The notes beneath the pieces are model-generated. The model saw nothing but the letters and a program-made list of their open reading frames with translations, had not been told where the DNA came from and did no database searches. This document shows, in pieces, positions 1,439 to 27,571 of a stretch of 48,237 nt of DNA (positions are counted from its first letter, which is position 1; each line of letters starts with the position of its first letter). Source of the stretch: an uncultured Verrucomicrobiales bacterium (GTDB taxonomy: Bacteria; Verrucomicrobiota; Verrucomicrobiia; Verrucomicrobiales; DEV007); contig CALAHF010000211.1 of assembly GCA_937891465.1 (NCBI GenBank), positions 1-48,237 on the forward strand, given 5' to 3'. The translations under genes were made by a program, and so were the position numbers.

Positions 1439-2128
1439 ATGAACAGTAACCGGGAAAAGATTCTGGATCTTCGAAAGATGCTCCGGGATAAACATGGCAG
1501 CGCGCAGCTTTTTGCTCCAACGGCGGCTTCGATCGCGGCGGCGGATATGGAGAAGCCGCCGGAAACGAGGTTGGACACGAATTGTCGAAAAGCATTGGGG
1601 ATCGGTAAAGCAGGCATTCATGAAATGATTGCGGAACCCACGCGGGCAACCGCGGGCCTGGCCTGTGTCATGGAGCGGCTGATTTTTGAAAACTCGGAGC
1701 ATTTGGCACTAATCGATGGACAGGATTGCTTTGATCCGGGATCGACGGATGCGCAGTTTTTGAATCGCTTTTTATGGGTGCGCTGTCGCGATGCGCAGGA
1801 TGCAATCAAGTCAGCGGACTGGCTGCTGCGGGATGGAAATCTGCCGCTGGTGGTAATGGATTTGCAGATGAATCCGGCGGCGGAATTGCGGCGGATTCCG
1901 GCAAGTTCGTGGTATCGGCTGCGGGCGGTTGCGGAGGAAACAGAGACGGCGTGTCTGGTTTTTTCGCCGGAAAAACTGGTGCCTGCTGCGCATTCCCGAT
2001 GGTCGCTTTCGCAGCGCTTTTCGTTGTCGGCTTTTGATGAACGTCGCGAAGACATCGCGATTACTCCAGTGCTGGAGCGGGCGCGTCCGGCTCAGGAAAC
2101 GGCCGATTTTCTAGCAACAGCGAGTTGA
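1439..2128 (+). CDS. imuA: ImuA, RecA-like mutasome accessory protein
   Basis: A 229-residue protein with the weakly RecA-like ImuA signature: LALIDGQDCFDP, then FLWVRC, LLRDGNLPLVVMDL and SSWYRLRAVAEE. ImuA acts with ImuB and DnaE2 in error-prone translesion synthesis after DNA damage, in the cytoplasm. It is the first gene of a tight three-gene operon: 18 nt to imuB, then 6 nt from imuB to dnaE2. The ATG at 1439 lies only 5 bp after the SOS box, so translation would be nearly leaderless; an alternative in-frame ATG at 1478 (residue 14) would give a leader of about 50 nt. The operon order and the operator make the assignment secure although the protein family itself is divergent. Confidence 0.85.
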   Translation: MNSNREKILDLRKMLRDKHGSAQLFAPTAASIAAADMEKPPETRLDTNCRKALGIGKAGIHEMIAEPTRATAGLACVMERLIFENSEHLALIDGQDCFDPGSTDAQFLNRFLWVRCRDAQDAIKSADWLLRDGNLPLVVMDLQMNPAAELRRIPASSWYRLRAVAEETETACLVFSPEKLVPAAHSRWSLSQRFSLSAFDERREDIAITPVLERARPAQETADFLATAS

Positions 2129-2146
2129 TTTTTTGGAATACAAACG

Positions 2147-3640
2147 ATGTTCGCGGTCATTTACATTCCTGATTTTTTCCTGCAAGCGCAGCTGCGCGAT
2201 CCGCATGATACAAAGCCGACGGCGCTGGTGAAAACGGCGAAAAAAAGCAACGATAGCAAAGCTCGAATCATGGCGCTAAATCAGGCAGCGCGTGATCTTC
2301 AGGTCGAAACCGGGATGACGGCGGCGCAGGGGCAAGCGCGGTGCGGGGAGCTGCGAATTTTGCACCCGTCGGAAGAAGCAGAGGCCGAGGCGCAACGAAT
2401 TTTACTGGAGCTATCAGTCAGCTGCTCGCGAGATTTTGAAGAAACCGGGCTGGGCATTTGCACGCTGGATTTAATGGGAACTCGCTGCGGCGATGAGTGG
2501 GAGTTGGGCTGGAAATTGGTCGAGGAATTGGCGAAAACATCATCGCTGCGAGCACAGATTGGCTTTGCGGAAACGCCGGATTTAGCCCTGATGGTCGCGC
2601 AACAGGCCGATCCGGTTCGATCGATCGCGGGCGAAAGCGACGATGAATTTCTGCAGCAATTGCCGATTGAAGCGCTGAATCCGCCGCCGGACATCACGAT
2701 GGTCCTGACGCTGTGGGGCATTCACACGATCGGCGATTTTCTCGCGCTGCCGCAGGGCGATGTCGCTGAACGGCTCGGACCTGATGCGCTGGATTTGTGG
2801 GAGCGGGTTTCGGGAAAAAAATCGCGTCTGCTCCGGCTGGTGCGCCCCCCAGAGGATTTTTCTCAGACGGTGGATTTCGATCACGAAGTCGACACGCTGG
2901 AACCGCTCTTGTTCATGATGCGGCGGGTGCTGGAAACGATTTGCGCGCGGCTTGCTGCGGCCTGGCTCACGGCGGGAGAAATTCGGCTTGCGCTTCATTT
3001 TGCCCGGGGCGGCGGTTACGAGCGAGCCTTTCGTGTGCCGGATCCGACAACGGAAGTGGAGTTACTTTTTCGAATGCTGCATGCCCATCTTGAAGATTTT
3101 GAAGCGAAGGCTCCGATCATCACAGTCCGGCTCGAAGCCCTGCCAGCGCGAGGCGCGAAGCGTCAGTTTCATCTTTTTGAACCCGGTTTACGCGATCCCA
3201 ACCGCTTTGCCGAAACCCTCGCGCGACTCGAAGGCCTGCTCGGTTCGGAGCGCGTTGGCATTCCCGAAATGCTCGACTGCCATCGCCCCGATGCATTTCG
3301 AATGCGACCGTTTCAGGAAGCGATCACGGATCAAAAATCAAACGCTCCGAAGCCGGAAAAATCGTTTCGCCTCGGGCTGCCGCTGCGGCGTTTTCGGCCT
3401 CCAATTTTTGCAAATGTCGCCGTCTCTTCGACCGATCAACGACCGATTCAAATCAGCAGCGTCCGGGTGAAAGGCGCCATTGCTGATTGTCGTGGCCCGT
3501 GGGCAATCAGTGGCGATTGGTGGGCAAAAGAAAGTCGCTGGTCGCGCAAAGAATGGGATGTGGAAATGGCGGGCGGAGGGCTTTACCGACTGGCTTGCGA
3601 GGGAAAGGACGAATGGAAGGTGGAGGGCATTTACGGCTGA
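2147..3640 (+). CDS. imuB: ImuB, Y-family polymerase-like mutasome protein
   Basis: A 497-residue protein related to Y-family (DinB/UmuC) polymerases. The N-terminus FAVIYIPDFFLQAQL replaces the catalytic DxDxFFA motif, and GICTLDLMGT stands where active polymerases have the second acidic motif, so the metal-binding carboxylates are not preserved. That is the hallmark of ImuB, which is thought to be catalytically inactive and to act as the beta-clamp-binding hub linking ImuA and DnaE2. The helix-hairpin-helix-like part (TLWGIHTIGDFLALP) is near residue 190. The C-terminal 120 residues carry the usual ImuB extension. It is co-transcribed with imuA and dnaE2. Confidence 0.88.
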   Translation: MFAVIYIPDFFLQAQLRDPHDTKPTALVKTAKKSNDSKARIMALNQAARDLQVETGMTAAQGQARCGELRILHPSEEAEAEAQRILLELSVSCSRDFEETGLGICTLDLMGTRCGDEWELGWKLVEELAKTSSLRAQIGFAETPDLALMVAQQADPVRSIAGESDDEFLQQLPIEALNPPPDITMVLTLWGIHTIGDFLALPQGDVAERLGPDALDLWERVSGKKSRLLRLVRPPEDFSQTVDFDHEVDTLEPLLFMMRRVLETICARLAAAWLTAGEIRLALHFARGGGYERAFRVPDPTTEVELLFRMLHAHLEDFEAKAPIITVRLEALPARGAKRQFHLFEPGLRDPNRFAETLARLEGLLGSERVGIPEMLDCHRPDAFRMRPFQEAITDQKSNAPKPEKSFRLGLPLRRFRPPIFANVAVSSTDQRPIQISSVRVKGAIADCRGPWAISGDWWAKESRWSRKEWDVEMAGGGLYRLACEGKDEWKVEGIYG

Positions 3641-3646
3641 TCGTTC

Positions 3647-6600
3647 ATGGCTGATTTCATCGAACTTCATGCCCGCAGTGCGTTCAGTTTCTTGCGCGGG
3701 GCCGATCATCCCGAAGCCATCGTGCGCGAAGCGGCTCGGCACAAAATGCAGGCGATGGCGCTAACCGATCGCGATGGCGTTTATGGATCGGCGCGGGCTC
3801 ATTTTGCGGCGAAGGAATTGAAGAAGGAGCATGGCAAGGATTTTCGGGCGCTGATCGGGGCGGAAGTCACCCTCGCGGGCGAAGCGGTTGTGCCTATTTT
3901 AGTAAAATCGCGGACTGGCTATCAGAATCTTTGCCAACTGCTGACGCGGGGAAAATTGCGCGGGCTTTCCGAAACCGAGGCTCAGGAAAACCCCTTACTA
4001 AATCCGCGAAAGGATGGCCGTGTCACGCTCGCGGAAGTCGAGGAATTTGCCGATGGTCTCATTTCGCTGACCGGTGACGAAGACGGGGCGATTCTAAAAG
4101 CGCTTCAACGCGGCGACACTGATTCGGCGGAGAAATCGTTGCTCCAACAAATTCACGTTTTCGGAAAAGAGAATGTCGTCGTCGAAATTCACCGCCATCA
4201 CCTGCGCGGCGAGGAATGGATCAATCGCCATCTCATCGATCTCGGCGACACGCATGGTTTGATGGTGATCTGTTCCAACAGGGTTGAATCGGCGAACCGA
4301 CAGGGTCGGTTCATCGCGGATGCGTTTACCAGTTTGAGAAATCGCGTCAATCTCGACACGGCAGGAAAGTTGCTCGCCCGAAATGCGGAGACCTATTTAA
4401 AAAGCCCCGCGCAGATGACGGCGCTTTTTGCGGATCGGCCTGAGGTCGTTGAAAACACATTGCGCGTCGCTGACCGATTAGAATTTACACTCGAAAATCT
4501 TGGCTACGAATTCCCAAAATTCGCCGCGCCCGCCGGTCATGACGAAGCCAGTTTTTTGCGGGAGGAAGCCTATCGCGGAGCCATCAAGCGCTACGGAGAA
4601 ATCACACCGAAGATTCGCAAACAGCTCGATCACGAACTCGGCCTGATTTCGAAACTCGAATTTTGCGGCTATTTTTTAATCGTTCAGGACATCGTTAAAA
4701 TGGCGTGGGACCGCGACATTCTGGTTCAGGGGCGCGGTTCGGCAGCAAATTCGGCAGTGTGTTATTGCCTCGGAATTACGGCAGTCGATGCCATTGGCCA
4801 GAAACTGTTGTTCGAGCGTTTTTTATCGGAAGGCCGCAAAACGTGGCCGGACATCGATCTCGACCTGCCGAGCGGCAATCGTCGCGAAGCGGTCATTCAA
4901 TCCGTTTTCCAAAAATACGCCCCACGCGGCGCCGCCATGACAGCCAACGTAATCACCTATCGCGGACGGTCGGCCATGCGCGAGATGGGAAAGGTGCTCG
5001 ATATCCCAGAGGAAATCCTCGGGCGTTTTTCCGATACCTGGGGCAGCAGCGCGATCAACGATACCGACGAATTGCATCAGAGAATGTTGGAAGCCGGCAT
5101 CGCCGAACAGCACCCCCGCCTCCCTGCCCTCGTTCATTTGTATCAGTCGGTTTACAGTTTGCCGCGTCATCTCGGCCAGCATTCCGGCGGGATGATCATC
5201 ACCGACAAACAGCTCGATACCGTCGTTCCGTTGGAAAATGCCACGATGGAAAATCGCCGTGTCGTCCAGTGGGACAAAGACGATTGCCAGGATCTCGGGA
5301 TCATTAAAGTCGACCTACTCGGCCTCGGGATGATGGCTGCGCTGCAAGATTGCGTAGAGCTTTGTCGCGAACGCGGGCGCCCCATCGACCTCGCCCAGAT
5401 TGGAAAAGATGACGACCCGGCGACTTACGACATGCTCTGTGCAGCTGACACCATCGGCGTTTTTCAGGTCGAAAGCCGCGCGCAGATGGCGACGCTCCCC
5501 CGACTGAGACCACGCAAATTTTACGACCTCGCCATCGAAGTCGCGATCATTCGCCCCGGCCCAATCGTCGGCGGAATGGTTCATCCGTATTTGAACCGAC
5601 GGAGCGGCAAAGAGAAAATCGATTACATCGACGATGCCTTCAAGCCAGCGCTGGAACGCACCCTCGGGGTTCCGCTTTTTCAGGAACAAGTTTTGCAAAT
5701 GGCCATGATCGCTGCCGACTTCAGCGGAAGCGAAGCGGAAGAATTACGCCGCGCGATCAGCTTTCATCGCTCGGAAGAACGCATGGCGAAAGTCATGAGC
5801 AAGTTGCGGGCGGCGATGGATCAGAAAGGCGTGCCGGCGGGAACACAGGATCAAATCACGGGATCGATCGAAAGCTTCGCGCTCTATGGATTTCCCGAGA
5901 GCCATGCAATTTCTTTCGCCCTGCTGGCCTATGCCAGTGCGTGGATGAAAGTGCATCGCGCTGCTGAATTTTACGTCGCCCTGCTCAACAATCAGCCGAT
6001 GGGATTTTACTCGCGGGCAACCCTCGTCAAAGACGCCAAAGCCCACGACATCCGCGTGCGGCCAGTCGACATTTCCGTGAGTGAAGTTCACTGCACGATT
6101 GAAGCAGATCAAATCATTCGGCTCGGTTTGAATCAGGTGAAAGGTCTCAATTCACAAACCGCTTCTCGCATTGTTGCTGAGCGAAAAACCAACGACTTTA
6201 TTTCGCTGGAGGATTTTTTGCAACGCACCCGCCCGAGTCGTGACGCCCGTCGCGTGCTCGCAAAAATCGGCGCACTGAATGTTCTCGACGACATCAAGCA
6301 TCGCCGCAACGCGCTTTGGAAAATCGAGAAACCGCTTCTCGAGCCCGATGATTTATTCACCTGGAAAAGCCGATCCGAGTTGGCAAAAAAAGATGCGGCA
6401 GAAGAAAATTCACCGCTCCCCGAAATGATTCCCTTCGAACGGCTTCAGGCTGATTATGATGGAATGGGCCTCACCACCGGTCCGCATCCGATGGCATACG
6501 CTCGGGAATATTTGCAGCACGAAACCAAGATGTGGAGAGCTTCCGACCTCGCACTGGGCGAGCCGGATCAACTTGTCGAAATCGGCGGGCTCGTCATTTG

Positions 6601-6850
6601 TCGCCAACGACCCGGCTCAGCCAAAGGCCACGTTTTTGTATCACTCGAAGACGAAACCGGCGTCGCCAACGCGTTTGTTCCTGCTGAGACCTTTGCCAAA
6701 TACCGGCTCGTCATCACCCGCGAACAATTTCTCATCATTCGCGGTCGCCTCCAAATCAAAGACAACGTGACCAGCATCTACGCGCTGCACGCCGAGCAAC
6801 TCCCATGGAAAAACGCTCAGTTTCAAACGCAGTCTCACGACTTTCACTAA
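3647..6850 (+). CDS. dnaE2: Error-prone DNA polymerase III alpha subunit DnaE2 (ImuC)
   Basis: A 1,067-residue C-family DNA polymerase, the length expected for DnaE2/ImuC and shorter than replicative DnaE. The N-terminal PHP domain starts FIELHARSAFSFLRGADHPE. The polymerase catalytic acidic motif WPDIDLDLPSG lies near residue 400, and VDLLGLGMM follows about 150 residues later. A helix-hairpin-helix segment (LGLNQVKGLNSQTASRIV) and a C-terminal OB fold (EIGGLVICRQRPGSAKGHVFVSLEDE) complete the architecture. It extends primers past lesions at the cost of mutations and works with ImuA and ImuB. The start ATG is 6 nt after the imuB stop, so translation is likely coupled, and the whole operon should be LexA-controlled. 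Confidence 0.93.
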   Translation: MADFIELHARSAFSFLRGADHPEAIVREAARHKMQAMALTDRDGVYGSARAHFAAKELKKEHGKDFRALIGAEVTLAGEAVVPILVKSRTGYQNLCQLLTRGKLRGLSETEAQENPLLNPRKDGRVTLAEVEEFADGLISLTGDEDGAILKALQRGDTDSAEKSLLQQIHVFGKENVVVEIHRHHLRGEEWINRHLIDLGDTHGLMVICSNRVESANRQGRFIADAFTSLRNRVNLDTAGKLLARNAETYLKSPAQMTALFADRPEVVENTLRVADRLEFTLENLGYEFPKFAAPAGHDEASFLREEAYRGAIKRYGEITPKIRKQLDHELGLISKLEFCGYFLIVQDIVKMAWDRDILVQGRGSAANSAVCYCLGITAVDAIGQKLLFERFLSEGRKTWPDIDLDLPSGNRREAVIQSVFQKYAPRGAAMTANVITYRGRSAMREMGKVLDIPEEILGRFSDTWGSSAINDTDELHQRMLEAGIAEQHPRLPALVHLYQSVYSLPRHLGQHSGGMIITDKQLDTVVPLENATMENRRVVQWDKDDCQDLGIIKVDLLGLGMMAALQDCVELCRERGRPIDLAQIGKDDDPATYDMLCAADTIGVFQVESRAQMATLPRLRPRKFYDLAIEVAIIRPGPIVGGMVHPYLNRRSGKEKIDYIDDAFKPALERTLGVPLFQEQVLQMAMIAADFSGSEAEELRRAISFHRSEERMAKVMSKLRAAMDQKGVPAGTQDQITGSIESFALYGFPESHAISFALLAYASAWMKVHRAAEFYVALLNNQPMGFYSRATLVKDAKAHDIRVRPVDISVSEVHCTIEADQIIRLGLNQVKGLNSQTASRIVAERKTNDFISLEDFLQRTRPSRDARRVLAKIGALNVLDDIKHRRNALWKIEKPLLEPDDLFTWKSRSELAKKDAAEENSPLPEMIPFERLQADYDGMGLTTGPHPMAYAREYLQHETKMWRASDLALGEPDQLVEIGGLVICRQRPGSAKGHVFVSLEDETGVANAFVPAETFAKYRLVITREQFLIIRGRLQIKDNVTSIYALHAEQLPWKNAQFQTQSHDFH

Positions 6851-7047
6851 GAACCCGAACTCAGTCCCAGATCGGGAAAAGCACCGTCGTCACGAGCTTG
6901 TTTTCAATCTGCATAATAATCGAAACCCTCATCGCAGGCTTACCTAAAATCGTCTCTGATCACGTCATTCAGTCAAGACCGGGTTTAGCACATTTCGTAG
7001 GATTCAAACTTGCCATCCCAAGCCCAGTCTTCCACCATCCCCCCCCA

Positions 7048-8442
7048 ATGGCTGCAAAGACCGCTATCACCGCCCCGCGTTCACTCGGAAACCGCATTGG
7101 TTTCTGGCTTGGGATCGTCGTGTTTTACCTGATCTACTTTATCGGGAACCTCAGCCCGGACAACGTACTCGTAAGTCGCATGGCTGCGGTCGCCGCCCTC
7201 ATGGCAATCTGGTGGATCTCTGACGCGATTCCTCTCGCCGCAACTTCGCTGCTGCCGCTGGTTTTATTTCCGCTTTCCGGAATCATGAAGGGCAAAGACG
7301 TCGCGCCGGTTTACATGAACTACATCATTTTTCTGTTCATCGGCGGTTTCCTCATCGCCCTGGCAATGGAACGATGGAACCTACACAAACGCATCGCGCT
7401 GAGCATCATTCGTCTCGCCGGTTCGCAGCCCTCGCGACTCGTTCTCGGGTTCATGTTGGCGACCGCGTTTCTCTCGATGTGGATCTCAAACACCGCGACC
7501 ACGATCATGATGCTAGCCATCGGACTCGCCGTCATCAAACAGGCCGAAGATTCATACGGCGCTGACAAGACCAAAAACCTCGGCGTCGCCCTGCTTTTAG
7601 GAATTGCCTACAGCGCCAGTATCGGAGGCGTTTCCACTCTCGTCGGCACTCCGCCCAATCTCGCTCTCCTCCGAATTTTTGAACTCAGTTTTCCAAAATC
7701 CGCCGATGCTGGCTACGTCATTTCATTTGGTCAATTCATGCTGCTTGGTCTTCCCATCACCCTCTCGATGCTTGCCATCATCTGGTTCGTACTCACTCGA
7801 GTCTGTTTTCGCTCGACCAGCGATCTCAAGCTCGCGCCCGAAGTGATCGAAAGCGAATACCGGAAGCTCGGGAAAATCAGCTACGAAGAAAATGCGCTCG
7901 ACGGAGTCGATATCGATTGGGAATTTCCAAAAGGCGATCAAGAGCACGCAGATCTCAATTCGTTTCTACAACGGCTTTCCGAAAAGCTTCACACGACTAA
8001 TCGAATTCTCACGATCGCACTTGGATATACCCGCTCGCTGAGTGCGGAGGCCAATGCTTGCATCGATCACGTGAATTTGATGAGCTACCAGCCGTGGAAT
8101 CCACAGCCCTACGAAGTCTGGCTTGAAAAAGCAGTGACCGACTTTTTAGAATCCGGATTACCGCCGGAAAAACTCATTCTGGGCCTCCCGTTTTTCACCA
8201 AAGAACTCGGCGGCAAACGACGGGCTATTCAGTGGACAAAACTGGCGGGCAAAGGCGAATCCACAATTCCCGAAAGCGATCACGAATTCTCGCCCGTCGG
8301 AAAAGCTGCCTGCGATCTGCGACTCGATTTGATGAAGAAATACAAACTCGGCGGCGTGATGGTCTGGGAATTTGGCCAAGATTCGCCGAACGAGAAACAC
8401 TCGCTGATGAAGCACTTGTCGGAGAAACTTGCGACTCCGTAA
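7048..8442 (+). CDS. Chimera: N-terminal half of DASS/SLC13 transporter fused to C-terminal half of GH18 glycosidase
   Basis: Residues 1 to about 280 (from the ATG at 7048) are the first half of a sodium-coupled DASS/SLC13 carrier: several membrane segments, the SNTATTIMM motif, and GGVSTLVGTPPNLAL, ending in the cytoplasmic LGKISYEE element. The frame then continues straight into LDGVDIDWEFP, the GH18 DxxDxDxE catalytic motif, followed by VNLMSYQP, LILGLPF and GGVMVWEFGQD, all typical of the second half of a GH18 barrel. The second half of the carrier (second SNT motif) and the first strands of the barrel are absent. The junction is near 7885-7900. The longer frame opens at 6805 inside dnaE2, so 7048 is the better start, although no ribosome site is visible. 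Neither half should work alone: a deletion or an assembly mis-join is likely. Confidence 0.8.
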   Translation: MAAKTAITAPRSLGNRIGFWLGIVVFYLIYFIGNLSPDNVLVSRMAAVAALMAIWWISDAIPLAATSLLPLVLFPLSGIMKGKDVAPVYMNYIIFLFIGGFLIALAMERWNLHKRIALSIIRLAGSQPSRLVLGFMLATAFLSMWISNTATTIMMLAIGLAVIKQAEDSYGADKTKNLGVALLLGIAYSASIGGVSTLVGTPPNLALLRIFELSFPKSADAGYVISFGQFMLLGLPITLSMLAIIWFVLTRVCFRSTSDLKLAPEVIESEYRKLGKISYEENALDGVDIDWEFPKGDQEHADLNSFLQRLSEKLHTTNRILTIALGYTRSLSAEANACIDHVNLMSYQPWNPQPYEVWLEKAVTDFLESGLPPEKLILGLPFFTKELGGKRRAIQWTKLAGKGESTIPESDHEFSPVGKAACDLRLDLMKKYKLGGVMVWEFGQDSPNEKHSLMKHLSEKLATP

Positions 8443-8444
8443 AT

Positions 8445-9461
8445 CTACGAAGCCCCCTGCCCCGGCATCACAACACCGGCCGACTTTCGCAAATCATCCA
8501 TCACGCGCATATTGCCGAGCGTGTCTTCGCGATCGCCAAACAGCCCGCCTTCGCCACGAACGACTGCCGCAAAAGCATCCGCTTCGACCGCGTAAATGGG
8601 TCGCGTTTCTTCGACTGAAATATGTTCTGGTTCGGCGTCTGGCCGAATGATCGTAAATCCTTCCAGACCTTGCCAAAAACGCGTGACTTCGATGCGGGCC
8701 TTAGTCCCAGCGATGTGCGCGCTTTGATCTGAAACCACGGTCATACCGCAGGTGAACGTCGCGAGGAGGTCTCCGTTTTCGAATTTCAAGGTTCCCGCCG
8801 CGTAATCGTCGACTCCGTTGATGAGGTGCGCGACGGCAGTGGATTCAATCGGTTCAGCGCCAGCCAACGCGCGAGTGAAATTCGTGCAATAACAGCCCAC
8901 ATCCATGATTGCTCCACCGCCTTGATCAGGACGATAACGAGCATCGCCATCGGTCACGGGGCGATCAAACGTGAAATCTGTGCGGATTAATTTTAAGTCG
9001 CCAAGCACACCCGATTGAACCAATTCGATGAGTTTTTCCGTCTGCCGATGCGCCCGATACATGAAGGCTTCGCACAATGTTTTTCCAGTTTCGTCAGCCG
9101 CAGCAAACATCGCTTCTGCATCAGCCAAATCGAGCGCGATCGGCTTTTCGCACAAGACGTGTTTGCCAGCGCGCATCGCTGCGATGGCAATTTCACGATG
9201 CAACCCATTCGGCAACGCAAGATAAACCGCATCGATTTCAGGATCTGCCAACAGCGCGTCGTATCCGGCAATGCCACGCCCGCCGAATTCCGCCGCAAAA
9301 TGATCTGCCGATTCCTGCGTCCGCGATGAAACCGCACCGAGTCGTCCCGTTTCAGATTGAGGCAAGTCAGTCGCGAATTTCTTCGCAATCATCCCCGTTC
9401 CCATAATGCCCCACTTGAGGAGGGAATCAGGGTTCAGGATTCGGGATTCAGGGCTGGACAT
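8445..9461 (-). CDS. Gfo/Idh/MocA family NAD(P)-dependent oxidoreductase
   Basis: A 338-residue oxidoreductase with an N-terminal Rossmann fold (KWGIMGTGMIAKKFA near residues 16-30), the conserved LCEKPIAL motif near residue 110, and a C-terminal alpha/beta substrate domain that opens with AFMYRAH and continues to GGGAIMDVGCY. Closest in pattern to dimeric dihydrodiol dehydrogenase/glucose-fructose oxidoreductase-like members, which oxidise or epimerise sugars and cyclitols. No TM segment or signal is present, so it is cytoplasmic. The first 15 codons are low-complexity (SSPESRILNPDSLL) and encoded by one arm of the palindromic element at 9422-9583, so the present ATG was probably supplied by that element. 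It ends 2 nt from the convergent GH18 fragment. Confidence 0.87.
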   Translation of the reverse strand: MSSPESRILNPDSLLKWGIMGTGMIAKKFATDLPQSETGRLGAVSSRTQESADHFAAEFGGRGIAGYDALLADPEIDAVYLALPNGLHREIAIAAMRAGKHVLCEKPIALDLADAEAMFAAADETGKTLCEAFMYRAHRQTEKLIELVQSGVLGDLKLIRTDFTFDRPVTDGDARYRPDQGGGAIMDVGCYCTNFTRALAGAEPIESTAVAHLINGVDDYAAGTLKFENGDLLATFTCGMTVVSDQSAHIAGTKARIEVTRFWQGLEGFTIIRPDAEPEHISVEETRPIYAVEADAFAAVVRGEGGLFGDREDTLGNMRVMDDLRKSAGVVMPGQGAS

Positions 9462-9583
9462 TGAAAGAAAGAATCAGGTTTTAGGCGTCAGAATTCGGAA
9501 ACCCAAACACCTAAAAACTGAATCAGAGGCAAAACAACCGGCAAAGCCAGCGCCCCGAATCCTGATTCCCAGCCCCTAAATCC
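9422..9583. repeat. Nested inverted-repeat element built of heptanucleotide units
   Basis: The left arm (9422-9457) on the minus strand is a degenerate tandem of CCTGAAT-like heptamers (CCTGAAT, CCCGAAT, CCTGAAC, CCTGATT). The right arm (9553-9583) on the plus strand has the same type of heptamers, so the two arms pair (for example GGGAATCAGG with CCTGATTCCC). An inner pair, GAATCAGGTTTTAGG (9471-9485) and CCTAAAAACTGAATC (9510-9524), pairs at 13 of 15 positions around a 24-nt loop. The whole 162-bp segment could fold as one long hairpin. It covers the start codon of the oxidoreductase gene and the gap to the DUF4399 gene. It resembles a small non-autonomous palindromic repeat. Confidence 0.6.
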
Positions 9584-9593
9584 TTCAGAAAGA

Positions 9594-10067
9594 TTACTTA
9601 TCTTCAACAACAATCTTAACCACCTTCGACATCACAGGTGGGTTGTGAACCATGTGAATGTGATCGCCGAGAACGAGCTGGAGCGTGTGCTCTCCTGGCT
9701 CAAGCGTGAGCGTTACCTCAGTCTGTCCGCCACCGAAGTGCTTATAATTGTCGCTCATTGGGAATGGCAATTTTGGATCAGGAACTTTCTCGTCAATAAT
9801 CAGATGATGGTGTCCGGTCGGCTTTTCGTCGCCAAGGTAGATGCCGGCAGGAGCAACGCCCATGCCTTTTAATCCAAAACGAACGGTGAAAGTTTTTGGC
9901 ACTGTTTTTCCATCTTTCAAACCAATGATGTAAACCTTCGCGTCTTCAGCGCTCGGAGTTTTGCCGGGCTCAGGATAAACGAGCTCCGCCTTGTCCTGTG
10001 AAATGAGTGATGTTGCGATCCCGCCAACAAGAAGGGCGGCCAATGTAAGAACTTTGAGATGTTTCAT
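9594..10067 (-). CDS. Exported DUF4399 domain protein
   Basis: Starts best at the ATG at 10067, which opens MKHLKVLTLAALLVGG, a signal peptide; the frame extends 6 codons upstream to 10085. The mature part of about 130 residues shows the DUF4399 pattern: VPKTFTVRFGLKGMGVAPAG, GHHHLIID near the middle, and GEHTLQLVLGDHIHM-x-HNPPVMS toward the end. The histidine-rich motifs suggest metal binding, which is inference. The family is periplasmic or extracellular and its function is unknown. It stands alone on the minus strand, divergent from galE. Confidence 0.82.
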   Translation of the reverse strand: MKHLKVLTLAALLVGGIATSLISQDKAELVYPEPGKTPSAEDAKVYIIGLKDGKTVPKTFTVRFGLKGMGVAPAGIYLGDEKPTGHHHLIIDEKVPDPKLPFPMSDNYKHFGGGQTEVTLTLEPGEHTLQLVLGDHIHMVHNPPVMSKVVKIVVEDK

Positions 10068-25062: not shown

Positions 25063-26735
25063 TCAGGTAGGAAACTTGACTTCGAATTTTGTAATTTCAA
25101 AGGTCGCCCTCGCGAGTGACAAATCACCACCCAGCATCCGGATAATCTCCTGTGCGAGATTCAAGCCGAGACCAAAGCCATCAATGTTTCGGCTTCGCGC
25201 TTTATCACCCCGATGAAAGCGGTTGAAGATTTTATCGCGCTCATCTTCGGGAATCCCAGCCCCTGTATTGGCGACTGAAATCACAATTTCCTCTTCAGCA
25301 CGCTCGAGAAGTACACTCACCTTTCCACCCTCTTCATTATATTTGATCGCATTGCTGATCAAATTTTGAAGCGCCTGCCTAAGCAAATCAGGGTCGGTCT
25401 CGAATTTGATATTCCGCTGAATCTCTGAACTCAAAGTAAGCTCCTTTTGCTCACACAAAATCTCGGCATCTTCACACAACGCTTCGATTTCTTCAGAAAG
25501 GGAAATTGTTCGGCGACGCGTTACCAAGTTCCCGGAATCCACCTGTGCAAGCATCATCAAACTGCCCGTGATCGTTTTTAATCGTTGAGCCTCCCGTTGC
25601 ACGCTCAACAAATTATTCTCTACCTCTGATCCTGGATCGCAACTGCTCAACGCAGTTTCAACCTCGCCCTGCATAATCGTCAGAGGTGTTTTCAACTCAT
25701 GAGAAACGTCGGCCGAAAACCGATTTGCATGCTGAAAGCTATGCTCCAACCGATCCATCATTTGATTCAACACTCCCGTGAGTTCCGACAATTCTTGATC
25801 CATGTGCCGCCTAACGGGAATCCGCTCGTATAGTCCCGTGGCCGTAATCTTGCTCGCAGTTTCTGTGATTCCACGAACTGGGCGAAGGGCACGGTTCGCA
25901 ATGAACCATCCCGTGCCGCCAATAAAAATTAGAGCGAGAGGAATTCCAATCCAAACCCCTTTAGAATACTTGCGAGTTCTTGTTCAGTTTCATTTAGATT
26001 AGCTCCCAACACGACGGAATATCCGCGGTCACGAATACTCGCGAAACGCCACGCCTCCCCTTCCACCTCCGCCGTGAGATATTTTATTTCCGGCGATCGT
26101 TCTCGACCGCCTTCCCGCCCCTTCGAATAGAAGCCTTTTTGCCCCTTCGGACGCCCCTTTCCCCCGGGAATTTCATCTCCTAAGAATTCGCGCAGAAAAT
26201 CAAGGTCAGATTCCGGAAGTTCATCAGTTCCAGATTTAGGAAGAAGTTCAACGGGGCTATTTTCGCTAACTAGATTTTCAGAAAAATCATCTTCGGTCGA
26301 ATCTGCACCTTCGTAAAACGGATCCCTGAATTTCGGATCCCCTTTCATAAAATCGGGGCGATCCGGGCTGGTTTGCAGATGAACCATTTCCGCAGGCGTC
26401 CCATTTAAAAAATCGGGATCGATCGTAGAAAACCACGAATTTTCATGTGTTTGAAAAATGGTTCGCTCCCACTGGTCATCTTTCAAAAAGGCCGCTCGAT
26501 TTCCCATCGCAATATCCTCGCCCATTCCAGATTCGATTCTGGAAATAACGACACTCGCATCCATTCGCGGATGCATGTCCCGCACGATTCGATCAACCGG
26601 GAGCGACAGTCGAAGATCAACGGCTTCGTAAAGCGAATTTCGAATCACGCCCCAAATGAAGAATCCCAAAAGCACAATGACCAGCCCCGAAACGAGGCTG
26701 GACAATAGAGCGAGACGTAATCGCAGAGAATGCAT
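25063..26735 (-). pseudogene. Sensor histidine kinase interrupted by a -1 frameshift
   Basis: Two frames make one kinase. Upstream (26735 to about 25960): membrane helix LALLSSLVSGLVIVLLGFFIW, then a sensor region with an acidic stretch. Downstream (to 25063): a second helix (PLALIFIGGTGWF), a HAMP-like segment, the phospho-acceptor SADVSHELKTPLT, an N-box (NLISNAIKYN), and the ATP lid (NTGAGIPEDERDKIF, FGLGLNLAQEII). The frames are joined by going back one base at CTAAAGGGGTTT (plus-strand C-run 25956-25959). Loss of one G would explain it, or slippage on A-AAG-GGG. If unrepaired, the upstream product stops 16 residues into the second helix region and has no catalytic core. It follows the response regulator by about 40 nt. 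The downstream part alone has an ATG at 25803. Confidence 0.82.
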
Positions 26736-26777
26736 CAATCAGTTTTCGGCCCCAATAAAATGGGTTCGTAAAATCAT

Positions 26778-27458
26778 CTACCCATTGGGTTCACCTTTAA
26801 TTCGATATCCAACACCGCGAACAGTCTCAATCAACTTGCATTCAAACTCGTGATCGATTTTTTTGCGAAGTCGCTGGATGTAGACATCGACCAAATTGGT
26901 ATCTGGATCGAAACTGTAATTCCAAACATGCTCACAAATTTGCATGCGACTGAGAACACGCCCCGGTGAACGCATGAAGTATTCAAGCAACGAAAATTCG
27001 CGCATCGAAAGTTGAATTTCTTCCTTCGCACGATGAACAGAATGTTGAACCAAGTCCATGTGCAAATCCGATACCTTCAGTAAATGAGTTGATTCACCAC
27101 TGGCGCGACGAACCACAGTCCGGAGACGGGCAACCAATTCCTCAATATAGAACGGCTTCGTCATGTAGTCGTCCGCTCCGAGATTCAGGCCTTCCAGGCG
27201 TTCATCAAGCTCACTGCGAGCGGTTAACAAAATCACCGGCACAGCATTTTTTTGTTTTCTGAGATTCTTCAGAATCGACAAGCCGTCACGTCCCGGAAGC
27301 ATGATATCGAGGACGATTGCGTCGTATGGCTCGGTGGTAGCCAGCGCATACCCTTCATCGCCATCGTCCACCTAGTCGACGACCATCCCCTGCTCCTCCA
27401 ATCCTTTCCGGATGAAGGAGGCGATTTGACTTTGATCTTCGACAACCAGGATTCTCAT
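26778..27458 (-). pseudogene. OmpR-family response regulator with in-frame amber stop
   Basis: The gene begins MRILVVEDQSQIASFIRKGLEE at 27458 and would make a 226-residue winged-helix regulator. After GMVVD a TAG (27372-27374) interrupts the receiver domain; the same frame then continues DDGDEGYALATTEPYDAIVLDIMLPGRDG. The phospho-acceptor Asp is in LDIMLPG. The rest is intact: LLTARSE, DYMTKPF, and the DNA-binding domain LSMREFSLLEYFMRSPGRVLSR with the C-terminal VDVYIQRLRKKID and TVRGVGYRIKG. The TAG sits where most relatives have a hydrophobic residue. A restart at GTG 27371 would lack the first receiver strand and its acidic pocket. Its partner kinase gene downstream is frameshifted. Confidence 0.85.
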
Positions 27459-27571
27459 GTTTTCAGTCGAACAATTTACCGCGTCAATCGCTGAAGGGGA
27501 AGGCATTTCGGCAAGAGTAATCATCCTATCTAAATTTGAAGGTGAGTTTGGAAAATCTATCAACTCAGAGT

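Follow-up and report, generated by a model that had tools for sequence, protein, structure and literature searches.

An in-frame joint between half a DASS carrier gene and half a GH18 glycosidase gene in an uncultured Verrucomicrobiales bacterium, probably left by a recent deletion

There is a single stop-free frame of 464 codons at 7048-8442(+) in the window, that is, the whole 48,237-nucleotide stretch of DNA analysed here, which is contig C211 of a draft assembly. It encodes a protein of 464 aa that begins as a DASS/SLC13 carrier, of which residues 1-281 supply the N-terminal half, and continues as a GH18 glycosidase, whose C-terminal part occupies residues ~283-464; the mechanical ORF that contains the frame starts farther upstream, at 6805. 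A preliminary description of this DNA had reported an in-frame joint of half a DASS gene to half a GH18 gene, and the open frame, the Pfam matches and the intact relatives agree in bearing this out. The likeliest reading of the frame is a young in-frame deletion joint by which two genes were destroyed; a contig artefact ranks second and a working fusion last. The parts are as follows.

7048..7890, + strand: N-terminal half of a DASS/SLC13-type sodium-coupled anion symporter (Pfam; up to 73% identity to intact relatives)
7885..7896, + strand: the joint, TAC GAAGAAAA TGCG (codon-level comparison with the relatives' intact DASS and GH18 genes)
7891..8442, + strand: C-terminal ~182 residues of a GH18 glycosidase (PF00704; intact relatives at 50-60% identity; PDB 6xyz)

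The family match is far above chance on both sides of the joint. In the carrier half, CitMHS (PF03600) is matched at 2.4e-43 with the 464-aa protein and at 3.3e-38 with the N-part alone, and Na_sulph_symp (PF00939) is matched at 1.1e-34, residues 23-287 of the protein corresponding to positions 11-275 of the 472 in the profile (Pfam). The NCBIfam model TIGR00785 (DASS) is matched over positions 12-252 of 444 with 150.9 bits, against a whole-protein cut-off of 198.6; a score under the cut-off is expected because only half a protein is present. Of 75 genomes compared within the genome's own GTDB family, 49 match this half (a count that includes the window's own genome), and the closest relatives, at 61-73% identity, lie mostly in frames of ~510-590 codons. 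The sequence homology of the N-half is that of a DASS carrier, but a complete carrier has a pair of inverted repeats, both bearing an SNT-type motif, and only the first is present here: the carrier part terminates at the linker between the repeats, and the second repeat and its SNT motif (ELTSNTATTE in the relatives) are missing.

On the other side, residues 280-390 match Glyco_hydro_18 (PF00704) over positions 102-236 of 317 (Pfam), and the profile before position 102 is absent. The catalytic motif LDGVDIDWE (DxxDxDxE) lies just past the joint and marks the part as GH18, but the complete barrel with its N-terminal strands and SxGG-type motif is not there. The first ~120 barrel residues, including the stretch that reads VGGWGRG in the relatives, are missing, as is a secretion signal; the relatives' GH18 proteins open with a signal-peptide-like stretch. 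The match to PDB 6xyz spans only chain residues 118-303 of 325. This half is matched in 13 of the 75 family genomes, again counting the window's own, and the relatives, at 50-60% identity, are mostly found in frames of ~300-366 codons. The partial cover of both Pfam profiles confirms the earlier statement that each family is without its other half.

The switch from carrier to GH18 is sharp, because the carrier matches stop at residue 281 and the GH18 matches begin at residue ~284: intact relatives align with the carrier side up to the former, and on the GH18 side their alignment starts at residue 2 of the 7894 query, equivalent to the latter. The family matches change over at 7885-7896, where the preliminary description had placed the junction, and the break falls where the first repeat of the carrier gives way to the second. 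The fused protein reads LGKISYEE followed by NALDGVDIDWE, where the DASS relatives have LGKISYEEK/I and the GH18 relatives have (F/Y)CEEHSLDGIDIDWE. At most ~6-9 bases (GAAGAA plus 0-3) are compatible with both parents, as judged from the relatives and not from the parents themselves, so that the two sides share little or no sequence. An overlap of this size is typical of illegitimate recombination. A misjoin driven by a repeat or by k-mers would need a longer one; a chimeric read or contig could produce the joint. Helicobacter pylori offers a published example of genes reshaped by illegitimate recombination (PMC3046158).

From these features we favour, as the probable origin, a recent deletion by illegitimate (microhomology) recombination, with an in-frame double pseudogene as its remnant. 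In the simplest case, the two genes would have shared one orientation, the DASS gene upstream of the GH18 gene, and illegitimate recombination would have deleted the DNA from one into the other. Carrier codon ~281 would have been joined to glycosidase codon ~120 at the microhomology, with loss of the second half of the former gene and the first part of the latter; the frame would have been kept by chance, for which the odds are one in three. The product would be a double pseudogene, an unselected fusion from which neither transport nor hydrolase activity is expected. Given what is established about the two folds, neither half would be expected to function by itself, and the fused product is presumably inactive. 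The motif SMWISNTATT (the first, SNT-type motif of the carrier) and the GH18 motif DxxDxDxE are both intact, the 464 codons are free of decay, and neither half has so far gained a stop or frameshift. As the halves are without visible decay the event, if real, is likely to be recent. The earlier alternative of a recent event or an assembly artefact stands; lack of decay fits an artefact too.

An artefact would be an assembly or library chimera, in which a chimeric read, insert or contig merge brought together two unlinked loci, from one organism or two, and the frame survived by luck. We consider this unlikely, although it is a serious competitor. The assembly is a draft of 5.97 Mb in 229 contigs (95.6% complete, 0.9% contamination), and chimeric contigs do arise in metagenome assembly: in one benchmark, joints between genomes numbered ~2.6 per genome with SPAdes and 22 with MEGAHIT (PMC11261854). 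Against a misjoin in the assembly graph stands the shortness of the overlap. The end of the contig, considered as a possible sign of the assembler, has no match elsewhere in the genome above the chance level and is uninformative.

Had two intact loci been merged into a chimera, the complementary halves would be expected elsewhere in the assembly, and the search of the same genome for intact copies of either gene found none. Each half is single copy. There is no other GH18 gene in the assembly, where the PF00704 profile recovers this partial gene only, and a model of the N-halves of five relatives recovers the joint alone and no other GH18 N-half. For the carrier's C-half, a query with one relative's DASS C-half gave nothing above 33% identity in the assembly. 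A scan of the genome with the PF00939 model picks out a single intact DASS gene, a different one, on contig C17, and one C-half remnant on contig C185 (G000:C185:46458-47123(-)). The remnant was considered as the missing carrier half and rejected: it belongs to another subfamily, with 33% identity to this carrier's orthologue, as compared with 48% to a gene of G014:C542 and 45% to a gene of G003. The missing halves are therefore absent from an assembly that is 95.6% complete, as a deletion would have it. This leans towards real loss but is no proof of it, because assembly gaps can fall right where joins fail.

Base composition was also considered. The left 7 kb are richer in GC than the remainder (0.549, the 96th percentile of 28 genome chunks), as might be seen in a chimera, but the GC-rich stretch runs on past the joint (Gfo 0.552, galE 0.530) and the tetranucleotide correlation of the left 7 kb, at the 25th percentile, is inside the genome's range. 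In 2-kb steps GC is 0.530 at 6001-8000 and 0.526 at 8001-10000, with no sharp step at the joint. Measured against the remainder of the contig, the left 7.9 kb deviates to some extent, at 0.893 compared with 0.922-0.966 for the chunks to the right. With no step in GC and a tetranucleotide profile in range, a chimera of two organisms is not supported by composition.

In relatives of the same GTDB family both genes are intact and at unlinked loci; in G007, for example, they are on separate contigs of 300 kb and 810 kb, and in no relative are the DASS and GH18 genes near one another. A simple deletion therefore needs to have been long or to have followed an earlier rearrangement; we take a deletion to be the more plausible course than a multi-step rearrangement. 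The only congener compared, G058, has neither a DASS gene nor a GH18 gene. The joint is in no relative among the 75 genomes of the family, in none of the matches from 387 genomes of the order (70-residue junction query) and at none of the 29 loci from a contig scan of 85,000 species (GTDB r220), so that conservation of the joint is rejected; its confinement to one genome is also what a chimera would give. Additionally, we found no paper describing a DASS-GH18 fusion, in agreement with the first remark that none was known. The flanking genes are as follows.

1439-3640: imuA/imuB-like genes, beside the dnaE2-like gene
3647..6850, + strand: dnaE2-like error-prone DNA polymerase III alpha, left neighbour, intact (Pfam)
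8445..9461, - strand: Gfo/Idh/MocA oxidoreductase, right neighbour, convergent, intact (Pfam)

There are dnaE2 orthologues in 42 of the 75 family genomes and Gfo/Idh/MocA orthologues in 32; among those fetched, the former are never followed by a DASS gene and the latter never adjoin a GH18 gene. In one relative the oxidoreductase adjoins a galE orthologue as it does in the window. A conserved operon uniting both genes is rejected, because the fetched relatives share no neighbours with the joint region. The imuA/imuB/dnaE2-type mutasome cassette (1439-6850) has a GC content of 0.55, as compared with 0.51 for the genome. Its dnaE2 has 74% identity to that of G063 (residues 4-820) and 69% to that of G069 (whole), but 66% to that of the congener G058 (partial match). 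By these identities it is nearer to other genera of the family than to its congener, which suggests that the cassette's dnaE2 may have been transferred.

Other genes in this genome are broken, and two of them (the DASS remnant on C185 and a response regulator in the window) count toward real gene loss. At 46.4-48.3 kb of C185 (L082, 1480-3330) there is a GC-rich wreck (0.624) in which a DASS C-half of the other subfamily, with in-frame stops, stands head-on against an N-truncated Ser/Thr kinase-TPR gene; beyond a frameshift, this gene continues as the C-part of an ECF-type sigma factor (kinase and sigma factor were named by eye). Two different DASS genes are broken at the inter-repeat linker, at 7890 in the window and at ~2110 in L082 (PF00939 positions 275 and 272), a coincidence of ~2% under uniform breaks that was spotted after the fact. 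A two-component pair at 25063-27480 (-) of the window also seems to be broken, with a TGA inside the reading frame of the response regulator (GMVVD*VDDGDEG) and a frameshift near 25930-25960 that divides the histidine kinase; the cause is either sequencing error or decay to pseudogenes. When 30 other window proteins were scanned most families were matched over nearly their full length, and half-genes are therefore not general in contig C211.

A working fusion kept by selection, in which half a DASS carrier would anchor a GH18-derived domain of newly acquired function in the membrane, is very improbable: the undecayed frame with its two intact motifs and a joint at the boundary of the carrier's repeats would suit it, but the fusion is a singleton, the carrier has no second repeat or second SNT motif, the GH18 part has no first strands or VGGWGRG motif, and the linker between the repeats would be cytoplasmic going by the topology of DASS carriers, yet the relatives' GH18 proteins start with a signal-peptide-like stretch.

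As a singleton with both halves structurally incomplete, the frame is not a new protein architecture. Taken together, the data suggest that the joint is present in the cell. If so, it is a clean and very young in-frame deletion joint of two unrelated genes, it illustrates on a small scale how open frames of chimeric type come about, and it carries the warning that automatic annotation could label it a 'DASS-GH18 fusion protein'. An artefact would instead be a reminder that joints in draft genomes need checking. In either case what is known of carriers and of glycosidases is unchanged.

In comparison with the DASS/SLC13 carriers (VcINDY, NaDC/NaCT), the frame has the N-half, residues 1-281 matching the solved SLC13/VcINDY chains, but differs in the absence of the second inverted repeat and in a TIGR00785 score that does not reach the whole-protein cut-off. 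Similarly, it is like the GH18 chitinase-like glycosidases (PF00704; PDB 6xyz) in its C-terminal ~182 residues with DxxDxDxE, at 50-60% identity to intact relatives, but is without the first ~120 barrel residues, VGGWGRG and the secretion signal. From the chimeric pseudogenes and deletion joints that illegitimate recombination leaves in bacteria it differs in that the frame is kept, decay has not yet set in and the parental arrangement is unseen; it resembles them in that half-genes are joined at a tiny shared sequence, in a single genome and without conservation.
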